From: Bacteroidota bacterium
GTDB lineage: Bacteria; Bacteroidota; Ignavibacteria; Kryptoniales; JAKASW01
Assembly (NCBI GenBank): GCA_021794075.1
Contig: JAJYRM010000033.1
Span: 1-37,566 of the forward strand
Direction: 5' to 3'
DNA: 37,566 bases
Shown here: positions 1-21,846 of the stretch, piece after piece
How positions within the stretch are numbered: the stretch's first letter is position 1
Layout: every line of letters begins with the position of its first letter
Made by a program: the position numbers and the translations under genes
The notes under the pieces: model-generated
What the model saw: the letters and a program-made list of their open reading frames with translations, nothing else
The model's database searches: none
What the model was told of the DNA's origin: nothing

Positions 1-470
1 CGCTTGAAAGCGACTCGGGACGGCCTGTTTTTAGAACGGCCGACGGCAGGAAGGTGTACGGCGGTGGAGGTATTACGCCCGACTATATCGTAAAGATGGG
101 CAAAGTCCCCGGGTTCATCTATCAATTCCAGCTGAAGAATATTTTTCTAGAGTATGTCGATAATCACGTTAGTCAGCATCAGGATGAGATGCGAAAGAAG
201 TACGGAACGTCAGCAAATTTTGACAAGGAGTTCAAAGTCTCGAACAGCATGCTCGAAGAATTGTACGACCACGCCGAGAAAGCGGGGATCAAGCTGACCC
301 GCGAAGACTACGACAAGAACACGAAATACGTCTCGATGCTCCTGAAGGCGTGGATCGCTCGAAACATCTGGGGCAACGTCGGGTGGTACAGGGTTGTGCT
401 TACTCTCGATAACCAATTCCAGAAGGCTTTGACGCTCTTCCCTGAGGCCAAGAAGATAGAAGGACTTTAA
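1..470 (+). CDS. S41-family C-terminal processing peptidase, 3' part only
   Basis: The gene is cut by the left edge of the window. The frame is open from base 3, with no start visible, to a TAA at 468-470. The visible 155 residues begin with the conserved end of the S41 protease domain: a stretch reading FRTADGRKVYGGGGITPD, which in this family closes the catalytic domain. The rest is a charged, helical C-terminal tail as found in long tail-specific/CtpA proteases. Known family role: serine-lysine peptidases that cleave the C-termini of periplasmic proteins. The catalytic Ser/Lys and the PDZ domain would lie upstream of the window, so activity cannot be judged here. A strong hairpin follows 9 bases after the stop. 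The in-frame GTG at 54 lies inside the conserved motif and is not a real start. Confidence 0.9.
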   Translation, partial: LESDSGRPVFRTADGRKVYGGGGITPDYIVKMGKVPGFIYQFQLKNIFLEYVDNHVSQHQDEMRKKYGTSANFDKEFKVSNSMLEELYDHAEKAGIKLTREDYDKNTKYVSMLLKAWIARNIWGNVGWYRVVLTLDNQFQKALTLFPEAKKIEGL

Positions 471-745: not shown

Positions 746-1642
746 ATGGAAGTTGACACCGGGAAATTAAGAAAGAAAATTTTCAAAGGGATGGCTGTCG
801 CGTTTGTAGTGGCCGCGTTCTCGCTACTTGTGCTGAGAGCGGTCTATGCCTTCACGCTTTTTAACGGCTTATCCGGCGCCATGCAGAATTCAGGTTGGAA
901 AAGTGCGCCGCAGGATTCCATAATGCAAGATGGTGAATCGCTGACTTTTGAGGCCAGCTATCTCTTCTTCAAAATCGGAAGCGTGAAAATGGAAGTCCTC
1001 GGAAAAACATTATATCATGGCGTACCCGCGTATCATGTCCGCGCGCTTATCAATTCATACAGCGGTATCCCGTTTGTAAACCTTCACGCGATGTATAACA
1101 CTTATCAAGACGCAAGGACATTCATGTGCCTTTCCACCGACAACATTCAGAAGGACGGCAAAGATTCGATGTTCACGTCGTACAATTTCGAGTTCAACAA
1201 GAAAATCCTCGACTGGACACTGTGGAAGAACGGCGTCCGGATCGATTCCTCGAAGGTGCCGCTTGACAGGCACTACACGGACGGCGTCAGCTTCTTTTAC
1301 TATATTCGTGAGGCGAGCAGGAAAGCCAATGGAGCCAGGACAACGATGTCGGTCCCGATAGTCGTCGATACAGTCCGTTCCACCGTGGATCTGACTATAA
1401 ACGAAAAGAAGGAAGACTGCAAGGTAACAGCCTTCAAGTATCCACTGGAGGCTTACAAGATGTCCGGCCACATCAACTTCACGGGATTTTTCGGGGTGAC
1501 AGGCGACTTCACGGGTTGGATGAGCGCCGATTCAGCAGAAGTTCCTCTGAAAGCGGATGTGAGCGTAATTCTCGGAAGCGTCGTGGTGAAACTGAAGGAT
1601 GCCAGCAGACCGGGTTGGATACCTCCGAAGAGCAACGACTGA
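746..1642 (+). CDS. DUF3108 domain-containing exported protein
   Basis: The protein has 298 residues. Residues about 13-36 form a hydrophobic segment after a lysine-rich start, which fits a signal anchor or uncleaved signal peptide. The rest fits the DUF3108 family of periplasmic or outer-membrane-associated beta-rich proteins: an early 'EASYLFFKIGSVKMEV' strand pair, a repeated aromatic/charged strand pattern, and a middle 'DGVSFFYYIR' stretch. No catalytic residues are evident and the molecular function of the family is not established. Its TGA (1640-1642) shares a base with the ATG of the next gene, so the two are probably co-translated. The ribosome site before ATG 746 is weak (AAGAGA). 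Confidence 0.75.
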   Translation: MEVDTGKLRKKIFKGMAVAFVVAAFSLLVLRAVYAFTLFNGLSGAMQNSGWKSAPQDSIMQDGESLTFEASYLFFKIGSVKMEVLGKTLYHGVPAYHVRALINSYSGIPFVNLHAMYNTYQDARTFMCLSTDNIQKDGKDSMFTSYNFEFNKKILDWTLWKNGVRIDSSKVPLDRHYTDGVSFFYYIREASRKANGARTTMSVPIVVDTVRSTVDLTINEKKEDCKVTAFKYPLEAYKMSGHINFTGFFGVTGDFTGWMSADSAEVPLKADVSVILGSVVVKLKDASRPGWIPPKSND

Positions 1643-2154
1643 TGCTGATAGAGTATCTCGGGAAAAAACCTCAGCTGCACGACAGCGTCTTTGTGGCCGA
1701 GGGGGCGCATGTGATAGGCGACGTGCTCATCGAAAAAGACTCGAGCCTTTGGTTCAACGCCGTTATTCGCGGTGACGTCAATTATATCAGGATAGGCGAA
1801 CGGACGAATGTCCAGGATAACAGTGTGATTCACGTTACGCATGAAAAATTCCCGACTGTTATAGCTTCTAACGTAACTGTGGGACATGCCGCCGTCATCC
1901 ACGGCTGTACTATCGAAGACTTCAGCCTGATCGGGATGGGAGCAATTTTGCTGGACGGTTGCAGAATAGGCGAGCATAGTCTTGTAGCCGCGGGATCAAT
2001 CGTGAGGGAAGGATTCGTTGTACCAGCCGCGAGCCTCGTCGCGGGAGTTCCTGCGAGAGTTGTGAGAGAGCTCAATGAAGAAGAGCTTAGACGACTCGAA
2101 GAGTCAGCACAGCATTATGTGGATTACGTATCGAACTACAGACGGGAAGGGTAA
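1642..2154 (+). CDS. Gamma-carbonic-anhydrase-like hexapeptide-repeat protein
   Basis: The protein has 170 residues starting at ATG 1642, which overlaps the previous stop (TGATG). The frame is open further upstream, but that part lies inside the DUF3108 gene and has no family match. The sequence is a left-handed beta-helix with hexapeptide repeats (V-I-G-D-V-L-I, then many I/V/L-G-x-x steps) and a C-terminal helix. Family landmarks are present: RGD at 43-45, a QDN triplet at 58-60, and histidines at about 64, 82 and 87 that match the zinc triad of the YrdA/CamH-like gamma-carbonic anhydrase group. Many family members have no proven carbonic anhydrase activity, so the reaction (CO2 hydration) is an inference. 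A tight hairpin follows the stop. Confidence 0.88.
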   Translation: MLIEYLGKKPQLHDSVFVAEGAHVIGDVLIEKDSSLWFNAVIRGDVNYIRIGERTNVQDNSVIHVTHEKFPTVIASNVTVGHAAVIHGCTIEDFSLIGMGAILLDGCRIGEHSLVAAGSIVREGFVVPAASLVAGVPARVVRELNEEELRRLEESAQHYVDYVSNYRREG

Positions 2155-2157
2155 ACT

Positions 2158-2174
2158 CCTTCGCCGAGCGAAGG
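2158..2174 (+). terminator. Short perfect hairpin after the gamma-CA gene
   Basis: CCTTCGC-CGA-GCGAAGG forms a perfect 7-bp stem with a 3-base loop, starting 4 bases after the TAA at 2154. There is no T-run after it, so it may be a weak terminator or an RNA-end stabiliser. The rest of 2175-2337 shows no gene. Confidence 0.4.
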
Positions 2175-2337
2175 CTAGCGGTGATGAGCCGTTGTTTAGG
2201 TGGCTTCGGACAGTGTGCCAAATCGTCCCGCTACGGCCTTGCAACTGAGGTGAGATAATTACACAAAAGAGTTTTCGTGGCGTGACCAGCTGAGGGACCC
2301 ATCTCACGCGTAAGCGCTGCTCGAGGAAGGAGACGGA

Positions 2338-3234
2338 ATGAAAGTGAAATTTTGGGGCGTTCGAGGATCCATCGCGACGCCGGGAAAATCGACCATATAT
2401 TACGGCGGGAACACCTCGTGCACTGAATTGCATTTGGACGACGGCAACCTCATCATACTCGATGCCGGAACGGGAATACGAGAGCTCGGCAACAAGCTCG
2501 CGAAGGGCAACAAGAAAGTCCGCGCTTACATCCTAATCACGCATCCACACTGGGATCACATTCAGGGTTTTCCTTTCTTCAAGCCCGCGTTTGTGGAGGG
2601 GAATGAGATAACTATTGTCGGCCCAGAAGCTCGCGGCGTAACTCTGTCAAAGATCATCGCCGAGCAGATGAACAAGATTTATTTCCCTGTGAAGCTGTCC
2701 GAGCTGCAAGCTCAAATCAATTTCATGCCTGTCAAAGAGGGAACGCTGAAAGTCTTCAATGCCGAAGTGCGGTCTTTTTACGTCAACCATCCCGGCTTCA
2801 CACTCGGCTATAGGATAACATTTAGCAATAAATCACTCGTGTATATAAGCGATAATGAGCCGTATTCCAGAGAGACGGCCAGGCTCTTCTCGAACGGGGA
2901 ACCGGATGTCCAGAGACTCTTCGAGAATTATCGGGGAGATCCGAACAACCGCGTGACAGACTTTATACGTGGGGCGGATGTGCTTATTCACGACTCGACA
3001 TACACGCCAGAGCAATACAGCGATCACATCGGTTGGGGTCACTCGCACTATCTTCACACCCTGCATGTCGCGGCCGATGCGGGCGTGAAAAAGCTCTGTC
3101 TGTTCCACTATGATCCCGCACTCGACGACAAGGCTATCGATACTGTTCTGACGAAATGCCGCAAAGAGATGAAGAAGATGAAATACACTTTCGATCTTTG
3201 CGCGGCGAGAGAAGGGGAAGAGTTCAGGTTCTGA
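2338..3234 (+). CDS. Metallo-beta-lactamase-fold hydrolase
   Basis: The protein has 298 residues starting at ATG 2338, preceded by a strong site (AGGAAGGAG, 5-base spacing). The MBL signature HPHWDH is at residues 69-74, supplying the first zinc ligands, and later histidines and aspartates follow in 'SDNEP', 'LIHDSTY' and 'LFHYDP'. The N-terminus 'MKVKFWGVRGSIATPG' is typical of the MBL subgroup related to class II cyclic-nucleotide phosphodiesterases and RNase Z, often a stand-alone cytosolic protein in two-component-rich bacteria. There is no signal peptide. The substrate cannot be told from sequence; phosphodiester hydrolysis is the likeliest chemistry. It appears to be monocistronic. Confidence 0.9.
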   Translation: MKVKFWGVRGSIATPGKSTIYYGGNTSCTELHLDDGNLIILDAGTGIRELGNKLAKGNKKVRAYILITHPHWDHIQGFPFFKPAFVEGNEITIVGPEARGVTLSKIIAEQMNKIYFPVKLSELQAQINFMPVKEGTLKVFNAEVRSFYVNHPGFTLGYRITFSNKSLVYISDNEPYSRETARLFSNGEPDVQRLFENYRGDPNNRVTDFIRGADVLIHDSTYTPEQYSDHIGWGHSHYLHTLHVAADAGVKKLCLFHYDPALDDKAIDTVLTKCRKEMKKMKYTFDLCAAREGEEFRF

Positions 3235-3413: not shown

Positions 3414-6400
3414 ATGAAGAGGCTGTCGTTTCTGGGCTTGATCCTCATCGCTGGAACTACGTTCGCGCAGGTTGATGAGTTCGGAAAAAACAAAGTCCAG
3501 TACCGAAACTTCGATTGGTATTTCATTCAGTCGAAACATTTCGATGTCTATTTCTATCCACAGGAATATTACCTGGCTGAATTCACCGCCCAGGCGGCCG
3601 AGGCAGCTTACTCTTCCATAAGCGAACATTTCCATTACGATATCACGAGCCGGATCCCCATCGTCATCTACGATTCACACAACGACTGGCAGCAGACGAA
3701 TGTAGTCTCGGAATATCTTGAGGAGGGTGTCGGCGGGGTTACGGAGTTGTTCAAGAACCGCGTCGTGGTTCCCTTCGAGGGATCCTACCGCCTCTTACGA
3801 CATGTCATCCACCATGAACTCGTGCACGCCGTCATTAATGACATGTACTACGGTGGCTCGATACAGTCGATAATCGCGAACAACATTACAATGCAGATCC
3901 CGATGTGGTTCAACGAGGGACTAGCGGAATACGAATCACTCGGATGGGACGCGAACTCCGATATCTTCATGCTGGACGCGACAGTCAACGAATACCTGGT
4001 TCCAATCGAAGACCTTAACGGCTACTTTGCATACCGGGGAGGGCAATCGGTTTGGTACTATATCGCTAGGAGATACGGTGACGAGAAGATAGGCGAGATA
4101 TTGAGCAGAATCAGGACTACGAGAAGCGTTGAACAGGGGTTCAAAAGCGCTCTCGGCATAACAATCAAAGAACTCTCCAGGAGATGGACTCACGAGCAGA
4201 AGGTTCTTTATTGGCCGGAGATCGCCACGCGAAAGCGTCCTGAGGATTTCGCCACCAGGCTGACCGACCATAAAGAAATAGGCAACTTCTACAACACAAG
4301 TCCGGCCATTTCTCCCCAGGGCGACAGGATCGCCTGTATTTCCGACCGGGACGATTACATGAGTATATACCTGATAAATGCCGGCAACGGAAAGGTCATA
4401 AAGAAGCTTGTCGATGGGCAGACGACAAAGAATTTCGAAGAACTTCACCTTCTGACTCCCGGGCTCACATGGTCGCCTGACGGGAAAAAGGTAGCCATTG
4501 CGGTTAAAAGCGGAGCTCACGATGCCATATTTATGATAGACGTTCAAACTGACAGAATGGAGAAGGTCGAATTCCCGGACCTTGCCGGGGTTTTCTCAGT
4601 TACCTGGTCGCCGGGCGGCGAAAGGCTGGCATTCATCGGCCAGAAAGGACCGCAGTCCGATGTTTATGTCTACGATATAGCCAATAAGAAAACGGTCAAC
4701 ATTACAAACGACATCTTCTCGGAGAGCGATCCAAGCTGGTCGCCTGACGGGAAAACGATTTACTTCGCCAGCGACCGCGGTCCATATCTAGACAAGCGAC
4801 AAACGGGGAAAGAGTTCAGGATGTGGAATCATAATTTCAACCGAAGCAGCATTTATTCAATATCCGTTGCATCGGGCATCATAAGTCGGGTTTCAAAATC
4901 TGATTCTACGGAAGAATCATATCCGGTCGCCGCCCCCGATGGGAAGCATCTCTACTATATCTCCGATAAAAGCGGTATCACCAACATCTATGATCTGAAT
5001 TTTGAGACGGGCAGAGCTCTACCCGCTACGAATTCTTTAAGCGGGATTACGCAGTTTTCGATTTCCAGCGATGGATCCAGGCTGGCTTTTTCCACTCTCG
5101 AGAACGGAGGATTCGATATCTTTGTCTTGAGATCTCCGGGCGAACACCTTCTCAACGACGAAGAGGTGCCGCTGACTGTATTTATGAAGGGGCAGGTCGC
5201 CGAGCGCGATCAGGCAAGGAGTCGAGCACGGAAACCGCTGCACGCCGGGGTGGCACTCGATTCTGCTCAAGTCACAGACTCAACTAAAGTCAGGGAATTG
5301 TACGGAAAAGATATTCAGGTCGATCTTAGCAATTACGTTTTCGGCGGGAGGCGGCCTGCCATCGACAGCTTATTTGAAGCGCCGAACTTCAACGAGAATT
5401 TCAATGTGAAGGACAATGTCGACAGCACCGGGAATTTCGTCGCACAGAAATACAAGGTCAGTTTCTCGCCGGACATTATCTACGGTAATGCAGGCTATAA
5501 TTCGCTCTTTGGCGTCCAGGGAAGCACGGTGATGGCTTTCAGCGACATGCTCGGCAATCACCAGATATTTCTCCTAACCGATCTTGTAGTTGATCTGAAG
5601 AACAGCGACTACGCGTTCGCGTATACCTACCTCCCCTCGCGAATCAATTATTCGATCGTGGGCTCGCACTTCGCCCATTTCCTCTACCTGTCGTCGCAAT
5701 ACACGGGATACTACGACCTTTATAGATTCCAAACCTCATCCGTATCTCTTAGCGCCGAGTATCCATTCGACCGCTTCAACAGGCTCGAAGCTGGGCTAAG
5801 CTGGATGAGCCTGACGCGGGAAAATCTCATGGAAAATTACGAGCCTAACCAGGAAAGGACCCTGATCGTACCGACGCTCAACTATGTACACGATAATTCT
5901 TTCTTCGGCTACATCGCGCCGATAAATGGTTCGAGATACATCCTATCGCTTTACGGAACCCCCAAAACCGGATCGCAGGGGATCGACTTTCTCACAGGGA
6001 CGGTTGACTACCGCAGCTATGTGCGGCTCTCAAGCAACTTCTACACCTTTGTATGGAGAGTATTCGCGGGGACTTCAATCGGCTCAAGCCCGCAAAAGTT
6101 TTTCATAGGCGGGACGGAGAACTGGATAAATGTCAGGTTTAACGGCGATTTCATACCGGTACGGAACGCGGAAGATCTCGAATTCCTGACGCCGGTCGTC
6201 CCGATGCGCGGCTACGACTACAACGCCAAATTCGGGAATAACTTCGCGTTGCTGAACATGGAACTCAGGTTTCCGATGTTTGGGTTTCTGTCCGCCGGAC
6301 CGTTGCCGCTCTTCCAGACTTTCTTCGGGACCACATTTGTTGATGTCGGCTCGGCGTGGGGGTGGGACTGGAACAACAGGTATGTGAAGTTTCAGCCCTT

Positions 6401-6572
6401 CGACTACGATAATGGCGGAAGACTCAAGACGAGGGACCTGCTGGTAGGAACGGGCGTTGGAGTTAGAATGGTTATCCTCTACTTTCTCCTTCGGCTCGAT
6501 GTCGCTTGGGCGTTTAATATGCAAAGCTTCTCCCCGCCCAGATATTACTTCTCGCTCGGATACGATTTCTAA
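3414..6572 (+). CDS. Peptidase MA / TolB-propeller / Omp85-like barrel outer-membrane protein
   Basis: The protein has 1052 residues. ATG 3414 is chosen because it follows AAGGGAG at 6-base spacing and begins a clean signal peptide (cleavage expected near residue 18, TTFA|Q). Residues about 40-280 match a gluzincin peptidase of the MA type: HELVH at 134-138 and a downstream WFNEGLAEY at 165-173 give two zinc histidines, a catalytic Glu and a third-ligand Glu. Residues about 290-590 hold at least six TolB/PD40 propeller blades (TWSPDGKKVA, SWSPDGKTIYFASD, and others). After a linker, residues about 690-1052 look like a transmembrane barrel of the BamA/TamA surface-antigen type: 'GGTENWINVRF', 'PMRGYD', then a final aromatic strand ending SLGYDF. 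Likely an outer-membrane protein with a periplasmic enzyme and propeller. Substrate unknown. It appears to stand alone. Confidence 0.88.
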   Translation: MKRLSFLGLILIAGTTFAQVDEFGKNKVQYRNFDWYFIQSKHFDVYFYPQEYYLAEFTAQAAEAAYSSISEHFHYDITSRIPIVIYDSHNDWQQTNVVSEYLEEGVGGVTELFKNRVVVPFEGSYRLLRHVIHHELVHAVINDMYYGGSIQSIIANNITMQIPMWFNEGLAEYESLGWDANSDIFMLDATVNEYLVPIEDLNGYFAYRGGQSVWYYIARRYGDEKIGEILSRIRTTRSVEQGFKSALGITIKELSRRWTHEQKVLYWPEIATRKRPEDFATRLTDHKEIGNFYNTSPAISPQGDRIACISDRDDYMSIYLINAGNGKVIKKLVDGQTTKNFEELHLLTPGLTWSPDGKKVAIAVKSGAHDAIFMIDVQTDRMEKVEFPDLAGVFSVTWSPGGERLAFIGQKGPQSDVYVYDIANKKTVNITNDIFSESDPSWSPDGKTIYFASDRGPYLDKRQTGKEFRMWNHNFNRSSIYSISVASGIISRVSKSDSTEESYPVAAPDGKHLYYISDKSGITNIYDLNFETGRALPATNSLSGITQFSISSDGSRLAFSTLENGGFDIFVLRSPGEHLLNDEEVPLTVFMKGQVAERDQARSRARKPLHAGVALDSAQVTDSTKVRELYGKDIQVDLSNYVFGGRRPAIDSLFEAPNFNENFNVKDNVDSTGNFVAQKYKVSFSPDIIYGNAGYNSLFGVQGSTVMAFSDMLGNHQIFLLTDLVVDLKNSDYAFAYTYLPSRINYSIVGSHFAHFLYLSSQYTGYYDLYRFQTSSVSLSAEYPFDRFNRLEAGLSWMSLTRENLMENYEPNQERTLIVPTLNYVHDNSFFGYIAPINGSRYILSLYGTPKTGSQGIDFLTGTVDYRSYVRLSSNFYTFVWRVFAGTSIGSSPQKFFIGGTENWINVRFNGDFIPVRNAEDLEFLTPVVPMRGYDYNAKFGNNFALLNMELRFPMFGFLSAGPLPLFQTFFGTTFVDVGSAWGWDWNNRYVKFQPFDYDNGGRLKTRDLLVGTGVGVRMVILYFLLRLDVAWAFNMQSFSPPRYYFSLGYDF

Positions 6573-18643: not shown

Positions 18644-18947
18644 TCTCGTTCTACTCCTAACGTTTCTCCTCCCGGCGTGTTCCGGGGGACCGCCTATGCC
18701 GGAGAAAAAACTTGTCGATTTCTATATCGACCTGCAGCTGCTGGATGCCCGCTACGGCGCCGACAATGCCGTCCAAAAAGAAAAAGCCGATTCCCTGATG
18801 AAAGCCTACCACATCGACAAAGCGCTGTTCGACTCAACTATGTCATGGTACAGTAAGCGCCCTGACAGATGGCAAAAGTTCTTTACGAAGGCGGACAATC
18901 GGTTGGCCAAGATGAAGCACGATTACGTTAAACGGAAACCCCGGTAA
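18624..18947 (+). CDS. DUF4296-like small lipoprotein
   Basis: The protein has 107 residues. The N-terminus 'MRLKPISLVLLLTFLLPACSGG' is a textbook lipoprotein signal with the lipobox LPAC, the Cys at residue 19. The remainder, 'VDFYIDLQLLDARYG', an alpha-helical linker, then 'LFDSTMSWYSKRPDRW', fits the short DUF4296 lipoproteins common in FCB bacteria. The function is unknown. It starts inside rsmI (ATG 18624) and its last 20 bases overlap the end of recQ on the other strand, a tail-to-tail overlap. Confidence 0.75.
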   Translation: MRLKPISLVLLLTFLLPACSGGPPMPEKKLVDFYIDLQLLDARYGADNAVQKEKADSLMKAYHIDKALFDSTMSWYSKRPDRWQKFFTKADNRLAKMKHDYVKRKPR

Positions 18948-21519
18948 GCCTTGCGACGAGCTGCACCTCTGCAATTTCACAATCTCTTATGCTTTCTCGC
19001 ACCTTTGCGGTATCGGCTGTCTTTCTTAGTTCGCTTTCCAACAGTGCGAATTTGCGGGTACCGATGAGAGTGCGAAGATCAACTCCAAGCCCCCGTTGCT
19101 GTAACTTCTCCAGCGTTTCTATTACGCCCTGTACTGTCGTTGACAAAGCGACCGCTATTTCTCCGGCAGTGAGTTTTTCCAGATAAAGCTCGTAAATACT
19201 CCGCTCCATTTGGGACATCTCCGTACTGCTTTCGCTGCTGAAATCAAGGCAGACCTGGAGCATTCTTTTCGAAATGACACCTGACTTGGCTCCATCCCTT
19301 GAGAGAAGTTCGACTACGTTCTCTTCCTTCAAAGGATGAGTGTTCGCTATCTCTATGAGCTTGTCATCGCTGCAAATAGCGAACGCGGGCAGGCTGAGCT
19401 CCGAAGCGAGGGCTCGCCGCTCGTCGCGAAGGGCCTTGTACAGGGCTTTCCTGAGGATGAACGGTTTACTAACTGCCGGCGCGATGCCGGTTCTCAGATA
19501 CGACCCGCCTTCGTCCGTGATAATTACAGTTGGATAAACAAATCCGTTTTTAGCTATGTACTTGCGTGACATCAGAAGGTCGAACGCTGAGTAAACCACT
19601 TGTGCCGGAACCCCTTTCAATACACCGAAGTGTTCCTCAGACAGCGCCGGATCAGTTTTTCCTTTGTCTCCGTTGCCGAGAAGTATTTTGCAGCATGTGG
19701 TCCGGCCGTATTCTCCGTTTGCCGCGTTGACCAAAGAGAGTATAGCCCGATGGATTTCTTTGAGGGGCGTTAGCCCCTTGACATCAAGCGAAGCGTATTC
19801 GGATGTAACGGTGCAATTGTCGCAATTGCCGCACCCGCCCTCTATTGGGTCTTCTCCGAAATAATTCAGGATGTAGTTTGTCCTGCAACCGGTGTTTGTC
19901 GCGAACTCTTTAGTTCTCGAGAGCCTTTCAGTTGCCCGCTCACGAAGCTGAGAATAGTTATTGAAGTCGATTGGTATACTCTCGGGTTTCTCGCGTCTTG
20001 ATCGCATTCGAAACGTCACCCCCTCGGTAGGGGGTTTGTATTCAATGAGCCCGGACCGGTGAAGGATTGCCAGCGTGCGAATCACGTTTGAGGGGCCGAT
20101 ACCTGCTTTTTGCGCAACCTCGTCCATTCTCAGCGGCTTTTCTTCGGAGAACACTGCATTGCCATGGAGGCGCAGAATCGATTCGAGGACGGCCTTCGAA
20201 TCATTCGAAGAAGTCTTTTCGATGGCTCGCCTGTATGAAGCCATATCGACCCTTGACCGAACATAAGCGCTAGCGGAAATGTTTGGCATAAGCTGGATTA
20301 ACTCCCGTTGCGACAAAATCCGGAAAACCGAATCGATTATTCTCGGATTTAGTTTTGTCAGTAGGGAAATCTCCTGCGTGGATATTGTGAGATACTCTTC
20401 AGGTATTGAGCCGACAGCGATCGCAAGTTTGTCGAAGATTGCCGTGTAAACTCTGATGAAATCTTCGCGAGAGGGATAAAGTGTGTTAATAAAAAATTCT
20501 TGAACTGCGAGATCTTTTTTGTTGAAAAGCAACAGGCACTCGGCCAGCTTCCCGTCGCGACCGGCTCGTCCTGCCTCCTGGTAGTAAGCTTCCAACGTGC
20601 CTGGTATTTCGTAATGAATAACATATCTCACATCCGGCTTGTTTATCCCCATGCCGAATGCGTTTGTTGCGACCATGACACGGTTCGAGGAGATGAATTC
20701 AGCCTGTGAACTAGTCCGCTCTCTTTCAGTCAGGCCAGCATGGTAGTGCAAAGCTTTGATCCCTTTTGTTACGAGCAGGTCGTGGATCTCGTCAACGCTC
20801 TTTCGTGTTGCTGCGTAGATAATTCCTGATCCCTTGTTTGCCGCTACGTAATTCAACACGGAAGTGGTCTTTGCTTTTTCCACGAGAACCTGGAAGGAAA
20901 GATTGTCCCTGCGAAATCCACGGATGTACACACGCGGCGAGCGCATCTTCAGTTGCGCGATGATATCGTCCTGGACGTCCGGTGTAGCCGTTGCCGTTAA
21001 GGCGAGGATCACAGGATTTCCTACGGCTCCGGCGAACTCCGATATCCGCGTGTAATGTGGACGGAAATCGTGCCCCCACTGACTTATACAGTGCGCTTCA
21101 TCGACGGCGATGTGCGAGACTCTTGTTTTGGATATTGACTCGATGAACCTTCTGCTCTCTAGGCGTTCCGGTGCTACATACAGTAACTTCACGCCGCCGG
21201 TCCTTACGAGCTGTAACCTGGATCTAATCTCATCGAGGTCGAGTGAGCTGTCGAGCTGTGTCGCAATCCTTCCGAATCTATTTACCTGGGCGACCTGGTC
21301 TTTCATCAGGCTTACGAGGGGGGTGATGACAATCGTGAGCCCGTCGGAAAGGACTCCCGGTAGTTGGTAACAAATTGACTTTCCGCCGCCTGTGGGCATG
21401 ACCGCCAGCGTGTCGAATCCATTGATAACTGAAGTTACTACCTCAAGCTGGCCCGGTCTGAATTTATTCAAACCGAAAAACTTTTCGAGTGCTTTCTGTA
21501 AGCGTTCAGCGGGGATCAT
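18928..21519 (-). CDS. recQ: RecQ ATP-dependent DNA helicase, long form
   Basis: I choose the ATG at 21517-21519 (863 residues) because the family begins near 'LQKALEKFFGLNKFRPGQ'; the upstream GTG at 21594 adds 25 unmatched residues. Superfamily 2 motifs are intact: Walker A MPTGGGKS (41-48), DEAH (140-143), TATATP (175-180) and QEAGRAGRDG (314-323). Then comes an extra segment of about 170 residues with two winged-helix-like parts (about 375-412 and 463-510). The RQC zinc cysteines follow at 545, 563, 566 and 569, then a winged helix, an HRDC domain (about 685-760) and a C-terminal helix-turn-helix segment (about 765-815). RecQ unwinds forked and recombination DNA 3' to 5'. E. coli RecQ is about 610 residues. 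Confidence 0.95.
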   Translation of the reverse strand: MIPAERLQKALEKFFGLNKFRPGQLEVVTSVINGFDTLAVMPTGGGKSICYQLPGVLSDGLTIVITPLVSLMKDQVAQVNRFGRIATQLDSSLDLDEIRSRLQLVRTGGVKLLYVAPERLESRRFIESISKTRVSHIAVDEAHCISQWGHDFRPHYTRISEFAGAVGNPVILALTATATPDVQDDIIAQLKMRSPRVYIRGFRRDNLSFQVLVEKAKTTSVLNYVAANKGSGIIYAATRKSVDEIHDLLVTKGIKALHYHAGLTERERTSSQAEFISSNRVMVATNAFGMGINKPDVRYVIHYEIPGTLEAYYQEAGRAGRDGKLAECLLLFNKKDLAVQEFFINTLYPSREDFIRVYTAIFDKLAIAVGSIPEEYLTISTQEISLLTKLNPRIIDSVFRILSQRELIQLMPNISASAYVRSRVDMASYRRAIEKTSSNDSKAVLESILRLHGNAVFSEEKPLRMDEVAQKAGIGPSNVIRTLAILHRSGLIEYKPPTEGVTFRMRSRREKPESIPIDFNNYSQLRERATERLSRTKEFATNTGCRTNYILNYFGEDPIEGGCGNCDNCTVTSEYASLDVKGLTPLKEIHRAILSLVNAANGEYGRTTCCKILLGNGDKGKTDPALSEEHFGVLKGVPAQVVYSAFDLLMSRKYIAKNGFVYPTVIITDEGGSYLRTGIAPAVSKPFILRKALYKALRDERRALASELSLPAFAICSDDKLIEIANTHPLKEENVVELLSRDGAKSGVISKRMLQVCLDFSSESSTEMSQMERSIYELYLEKLTAGEIAVALSTTVQGVIETLEKLQQRGLGVDLRTLIGTRKFALLESELRKTADTAKVRESIRDCEIAEVQLVARLTGVSV

Positions 21520-21846
21520 GTTGAAATTTAATACCGAGGGGCCAAATAGATAAACTTTTTGGAAACTCGACTCTACAGCTACGAAAGGTTGCACTAAGAC
21601 TCTAGCTGTTGTGGCACGACGAGGAATCTCCTAGTTCGAAATGCGCCATCGAATCGCGGGGTTCGTTTAGTTGACACCCGTGGTTGTGTCTGCTGGCATT
21701 TCGTGATCTTCTGAAAAAACGAGAGGCGGATGCGGTATTGACTTGGTTTGCAAAATACGCGCCATTCATTTTGACTCCTCCTGATAGGAGGGAAAAAGTG
21801 GAGTAAGTCGTTGATTATCCGTATCTTTTGAGGCCTGTTTTTGACC
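21520..21846. other. Intergenic region upstream of recQ and the tRNA cluster
   Basis: No gene is supported in this stretch. It holds a small hairpin, CCTCCT-GAT-AGGAGG at 21777-21791, whose 3' arm is a perfect Shine-Dalgarno sequence followed 6 bases later by GTG-GAG-TAA (21798-21806). Promoters for recQ are probably here, but I could not identify one with confidence. Confidence 0.5.

Follow-up and report, generated by a model that had tools for sequence, protein, structure and literature searches.

The Omp85 superfamily provides the closest described relatives of the protein considered here. Heinz and Lithgow (2014) name, in the main text of their classification, ten Omp85/TpsB subfamilies, one of which, WD40-Omp85, carries a TolB-like propeller, is devoid of POTRA domains, and is compared there to a fusion of BamA with BamB (PMC4104836). 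According to the same text, POTRA domains are missing from the Metallo and noNterm subfamilies as well, and what the "Metallo" class carries is PF00149, a metallophosphatase domain (PMC4104836). Omp85 subfamilies with N-terminal enzyme or WD40-like domains have been called poorly characterized; the best-studied enzyme–Omp85 fusion is PlpD, a patatin-Omp85 whose enzyme domain has been shown to be periplasmic (PMC11116518). Other arrangements bring an enzyme or a partner to the barrel in trans. BepA, a separate zinc peptidase, binds LptD while it is assembling at BamA and either assists or degrades it (PMC8423444). Both TamL and TamB are essential in Flavobacterium, TamL was co-purified with TamB, and the two genes are not co-operonic (PMC12045153).

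The window we analyzed is a stretch of 37,566 nucleotides of a Bacteroidota genome. An uninterrupted open reading frame at 3414–6572 on its forward strand, stop included, encodes a protein of 1052 residues. From N to C terminus, it comprises a signal peptide, the Peptidase_MA_2 domain, a propeller of six TolB-like blades, and an Omp85 barrel. Its features are as follows:

3414..6572, + strand: whole gene of the peptidase–propeller–Omp85 protein (ORF reading; full-length relatives)
3414..3467, + strand: signal peptide of the signal peptidase I type, residues 1–18 (read from sequence alone)
3471..4277, + strand: peptidase MA (gluzincin-like) domain, residues 20–288 (PF13485 at 1.5e-14 for the stretch)
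3813..3827, + strand: HELVH zinc-binding motif, residues 134–138 (H, E, and H invariant in 40 sequences)
3906..3920, + strand: WFNEG, residues 165–169 (W, E, and G invariant in the 40)
4032..4037, + strand: Y207-R208, putative further active-site residues (near-invariant in zinc-bearing sequences)
4278..5183, + strand: six-bladed TolB/PD40 beta-propeller, residues 289–590 (PF07676, TIGR02800, and PDB TolB matches; Foldseek)
5184..5465, + strand: linker, residues 591–684 (free of POTRA matches in Pfam)
5466..6569, + strand: Omp85-superfamily barrel, residues about 685–1052 (family-level Omp85/BamA/TamL matches; hhalign)
6207..6215, + strand: RGY, Omp85 loop-6 signature, residues 932–934 (R and G kept in both clades)
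6336..6350, + strand: FVDVG, Omp85 inner-wall motif, residues 975–979 (F, D, and G kept in both clades)

This protein has the defining arrangement of WD40-Omp85, a TolB-like propeller directly N-terminal to an Omp85 barrel, and it shares with that class the absence of POTRA: a Pfam scan returned no POTRA match anywhere in its length. It differs in its zinc-peptidase domain. The main text of the 2014 classification describes neither a zinc peptidase in the WD40-Omp85 class nor a zinc-less branch (PMC4104836), and this was the only paper found by our search of open-access literature for the three-domain architecture. Thus, the propeller–barrel fusion is already known, and its peptidase domain seems undescribed. 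PlpD is alike in having its enzyme domain N-terminal to the barrel and is a likely model of topology (PMC11116518), whereas it bears a patatin lipase and one POTRA in place of a gluzincin and a propeller. Indeed, a Pfam scan found no patatin domain in our protein, which places it outside the patatin-Omp85, or type Vd, class. BepA of Escherichia coli resembles it as a zinc peptidase that acts on outer-membrane proteins during their assembly at an Omp85 barrel (PMC8423444); unlike our protein, BepA is separate and soluble, acts on BAM in trans, and belongs to family M48 (PMC7950410) rather than peptidase MA. The translocation and assembly module (TAM), TamA or TamL with TamB, likewise ties an Omp85 barrel to a TamB-family protein, here through gene order only. 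However, TamA and TamL both have POTRA domains and TamL is a lipoprotein, whereas the signal peptide of our protein, MKRLSFLGLILIAGTTFA, reads as having no lipobox cysteine, and its own link to TamB is one that gene order suggests.

The N-terminal domain carries the hallmarks of a zinc peptidase. Peptidase_MA_2 (PF13485) matches residues 77–259 at 3e-13, scoring 50.4 bits against a curated Pfam cutoff of 32.4, and it matches 36 of 40 diverse zinc-bearing members of the family. H134, E135, H138, W165, E168, and G169 are invariant among these 40, the last three within WFNEGLAEY (residues 165–173). By the gluzincin pattern, E168 is probably the third zinc ligand. Y207-R208 are probably further active-site residues, since they have disappeared together with the zinc histidines in the zinc-less sequences described below. 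A PDB profile search with the N-terminal domain gave no meaningful match, and an AlphaFold model of this domain by itself, from a shallow alignment of close relatives, has a pLDDT of 36.2.

The propeller is nearest to TolB in both sequence and fold. Its blade motifs (SPQGD at 300, WSPDG at 353, WSPGG at 398, WSPDG at 442, APDG at 508, and SSDG at 552) amount to six blades, the number found in TolB. PD40 matches at 2.6e-26 and solved TolB structures at 8e-15; the TolB model matches at 4.6e-38, which is weaker than its own equivalog cutoff. In an AlphaFold model of the full protein (alignment of 7 close relatives only; pLDDT 37.9) the propeller alone is folded, and Foldseek placed this part on TolB. 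By comparison, TolB itself is a separate periplasmic protein of the Tol-Pal system with an N-terminal domain of its own.

The barrel emerges chiefly at the level of the family. In the single 1052-residue sequence its signal is weak (NCBIfam TamL 6e-7, Omp85 5e-5). Among 30 diverse barrel regions, the NCBIfam TamL model, which is the best match of the barrel sequences, hits 29 and the BamA model 25; PF01103, the Pfam Omp85 family, matches 10 of the 30, at best with 7e-19, and TIGR03303 matches also occur in the family. Aligned by hhalign with 13 BamA proteins of the same phylum, the profile of these 30 barrels gives a probability of 99% and an E value of 3.7e-17 over 339 columns, barrel end to end. 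The sequence MRGY stands at 931–934; R932, G933, F975, D977, and G979 are conserved in zinc-bearing and zinc-less clades alike, and the last residue of the chain is phenylalanine. From profile homology, we identify the C-terminal region as an Omp85-superfamily barrel homologous to BamA over its full length. The missing POTRA is compatible with this membership, since the WD40, Metallo, and noNterm subfamilies also do without it. A PDB profile search with the barrel gave no meaningful match, and the barrel region of the full-length AlphaFold model from 7 close relatives has a pLDDT of about 20–30.

Relatives matching at 1e-20 or better occur in 134 of 198 sampled genomes of the phylum. Nearly all are single open reading frames of about 950–1150 residues, and full-length relatives of 1040–1100 residues are found throughout the phylum; in one genus of the window's family, all 13 of 13 genomes carry the gene. 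These full-length relatives, taken with the invariant H134, E135, H138, W165, E168, and G169, rule out a chance fusion, and the comparisons identify the three-domain protein as a stable family. An earlier note had read a signal peptide, HELVH with NEGLAEY, at least six WSPDG-type blades, and a terminal Omp85-like barrel segment with an aromatic end from this one gene, and had remarked that such domains are usually separate. The profile matches, motif positions, blade count, BamA alignment, and terminal phenylalanine agree with that description, and each third, searched against peptidase MA, PD40, and Omp85 profiles, found its match, the barrel mainly through the family. The protein is not exotic; it is a widespread, poorly characterized kind of Omp85 protein.

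Several variants accompany the main form. The window's genome holds a second copy with 44% identity and a distant third. This third paralog (locus L063, G000:C55, 7350–10541, minus strand; 1064 residues) is very divergent, carries HEFTH, and has a PorV-like gene and a PorU-like fragment in its vicinity. A subfamily with an intact zinc site (L070, L072–L074, L077, L078, L080, L133–L144) mostly ends in PGW instead of the aromatic phenylalanine strand, and it coexists with the zinc-less form in genomes of family f28. A scan of viral contigs returned no relatives of the 1052-residue protein.

Part of the family has lost the zinc site. Zinc-less proteins account for 18 of the 62 in our tree (family codes f19, f28 as a second copy, f30, f31, f32, and f39) and retain the same three-domain architecture. 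Both zinc histidines of HExxH are missing in every one of them, and the glutamate ligand in nearly all. The tree is unrooted and was built from propeller and barrel columns only, the peptidase domain being left out. On it, a single branch with support of 100 separates the 18 zinc-less sequences from all the others, so that one change suffices; shuffled zinc labels on the same tree require about 16. Because the zinc ligands agree with those of the wider peptidase family, the natural direction of this change is a loss, which would have happened once. The peptidase fold has been retained: hhalign aligns the zinc-less with the zinc-bearing domain at a probability of 100 and an E value of 1e-52 over 259 columns. 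Between the two clades, sequences are on average 24.9% identical in the peptidase domain, as against 24.3% in the barrel and 19.6% in the propeller; by this measure, conservation of the peptidase domain does not fall below that of the barrel. Only ten positions are near-invariant in zinc-bearing sequences and absent from all zinc-less ones. The peptidase domain holds five of them, among which are both zinc histidines and Y207-R208; residues of a single active site would be expected to disappear jointly in this way. Since a whole clade lost the catalytic site yet kept all three domains, catalysis is not the general purpose of the architecture. This pattern of conservation suggests that the peptidase domain has a second, noncatalytic job, at least in the zinc-less clade.

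The surroundings of the zinc-less genes have features of their own. At six loci (L098, L099, L168, L171, L175, and L176, in genomes G177, G083, G087, G197, G060, and G205), zinc-less members lie near PorV-like and PorU-like genes, with a phosphatidylserine-synthase-type gene and a divergent MBL-fold hydrolase nearby; the neighbors at these six loci were named by reading their sequences, independently of a family scan. The MBL-fold gene is a repeated neighbor of the zinc-less form, present at most of the loci read.

In many genomes, gene order suggests a link between the protein and TamB. Outside the window's genus, a recurrent block runs rfaE1, rfaE2, a gene of about 1500 residues, RNase R, and then the propeller–barrel gene. 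We searched the same 198 genomes with the 1500-residue family; both genes were located in 86, and in 46 of these, spanning eight family codes, the TamB/AsmA-family gene lies 2.1–4.5 kb upstream on the same strand. Wherever the locus was read, RNase R stands between the two. The Pfam matches of the upstream gene are to DUF748/AsmA, and we considered the possibility that it is unrelated to TamB. This was discarded: in the window's genome, the family matches a PF04357 (TamB) open reading frame that also follows rfaE1-rfaE2, and by this homology it is TamB-like. That TamB gene is on contig C189, away from the window, and is followed by a different gene; the window's own gene has no envelope-assembly genes among its neighbors. 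In the window's genus, the upstream genes are DUF3108, a gamma-carbonic-anhydrase-like gene, and an MBL-fold gene (746–3234 in the window, in an order largely conserved across the genus), and Sel1-repeat and amino-acid permease genes follow downstream on the opposite strand. In genome G136, the propeller–barrel and TamB-like genes are adjacent and head to head, unlike the usual order. In some genomes (for example, G134) the neighbor is a second TamB-like gene, another TamB lying near a TamA-like gene. Genomes with the propeller–barrel gene also encode BamA and TamA/TamL-like proteins, the TamL matches falling mostly below the model cutoff. The protein is therefore not the sole candidate partner of TamB, and the idea that it replaces TamL outright was dropped.

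We tentatively favor, with somewhat less than even confidence, a POTRA-less protein of WD40-Omp85 type that serves outer-membrane assembly or homeostasis in the TamB/AsmA pathway, with a peptidase domain that grips or cuts clients. Omp85 barrels have both termini in the periplasm. With the barrel in the outer membrane, the propeller and the peptidase domain would hang in the periplasm, a placement suggested by those termini and by the enzyme domain of PlpD, which stays there. The propeller may act as a docking platform in place of POTRA domains and BamB, and, close to the barrel, the peptidase domain could hold on to clients that are unfolded or stalled. Zinc-bearing members might also cut such clients, in cis, just as BepA can either help LptD along or degrade it on BAM; zinc-less members would be left with gripping or scaffolding alone. 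The protein would then share a pathway with the TamB/AsmA-family protein so often encoded upstream of it, and it is this gene order that suggests the partner.

Other readings give the peptidase the leading part. An outer-membrane-anchored protease of the periplasm or envelope, with barrel and propeller merely holding a trimming peptidase and no role in assembly, would fit the invariant zinc motif of the zinc-bearing groups and the gene context in the window's genus, which is unrelated to assembly. We think it unlikely, since a large clade retains everything but the catalytic site and a mere anchor would not require conserved Omp85 loop-6 and inner-wall motifs. Alternatively, the barrel could deliver peptidase and propeller to the cell surface, there to act on outside substrates in the manner of type Vd proteins. 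PlpD was first interpreted in this way, and surface display is raised for enzyme–Omp85 classes in the main text of Heinz and Lithgow (PMC4104836). However, the enzyme domain of PlpD proved to be periplasmic (PMC11116518), export would require the passage of about 570 folded residues, the Pfam scan found no POTRA, and synteny is conserved with a TamB-family protein that spans the periplasm; export of this kind is accordingly improbable. The earlier note had proposed a conveyor, in which the enzyme processes a substrate, the propeller hands it on, and the barrel exports it. The three domains do follow one another in that order in one chain, but no dedicated substrate gene stands beside the propeller–barrel gene in the loci read, and a propeller of TolB type is not known to move substrates. 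Catalysis is moreover dispensable in one clade, and the periplasmic termini together with the periplasmic enzyme of PlpD (PMC11116518) speak against this proposal, which we regard as the most doubtful of all.

A last rival takes the neighborhood as inherited gene order. RNase R still adjoins the gene at locus L096, where the TamB-family gene of the cluster was not found, so common descent alone may account for the order. The protein could then be a housekeeping assembly factor of the outer membrane, its TamB neighborhood an inherited arrangement with RNase R and rfaE and its actual partners BAM or Tol-Pal, and the propeller is indeed nearest to TolB. Against this, the order with TamB is kept in 8 family codes even though the flanks on the other side differ, and G136 has the two genes adjacent in a different, head-to-head arrangement; we consider this reading rather unlikely. 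A more specific version of the TamB reading is a POTRA-less TAM of deep branches of this phylum, in which a propeller-Omp85 with a zinc protease surveying clients or lipids at the barrel is the outer-membrane partner of a TamB-family bridge, the protease having decayed once, in one clade, to a pure binding domain. This is speculative, and we give it a modest chance. If true, the zinc-less clade would be a natural experiment that parts the catalytic from the scaffolding roles of an envelope protease.

These findings matter in several ways. The WD40 class gains a third domain and, through gene order, a candidate partner; its zinc-bearing and zinc-less forms can be compared cleanly. If the TamB link is true, lineages whose tamL is not next to tamB would have in this protein an outer-membrane partner for their TamB-family genes. 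More broadly, a barrel fused to its own peptidase may be a compact counterpart of the BepA–BAM arrangement. What makes the family stand out is its seemingly undescribed third domain, its recurrent TamB-family neighbor, and a large clade in which the zinc site was lost, apparently a single time.

Two further genes of the window may be recorded. A 138-residue open reading frame at 54–470 (plus strand) has no Pfam match, and 18928–21594 (minus strand) encodes a RecQ-type helicase of 888 residues with RQC and HRDC domains.
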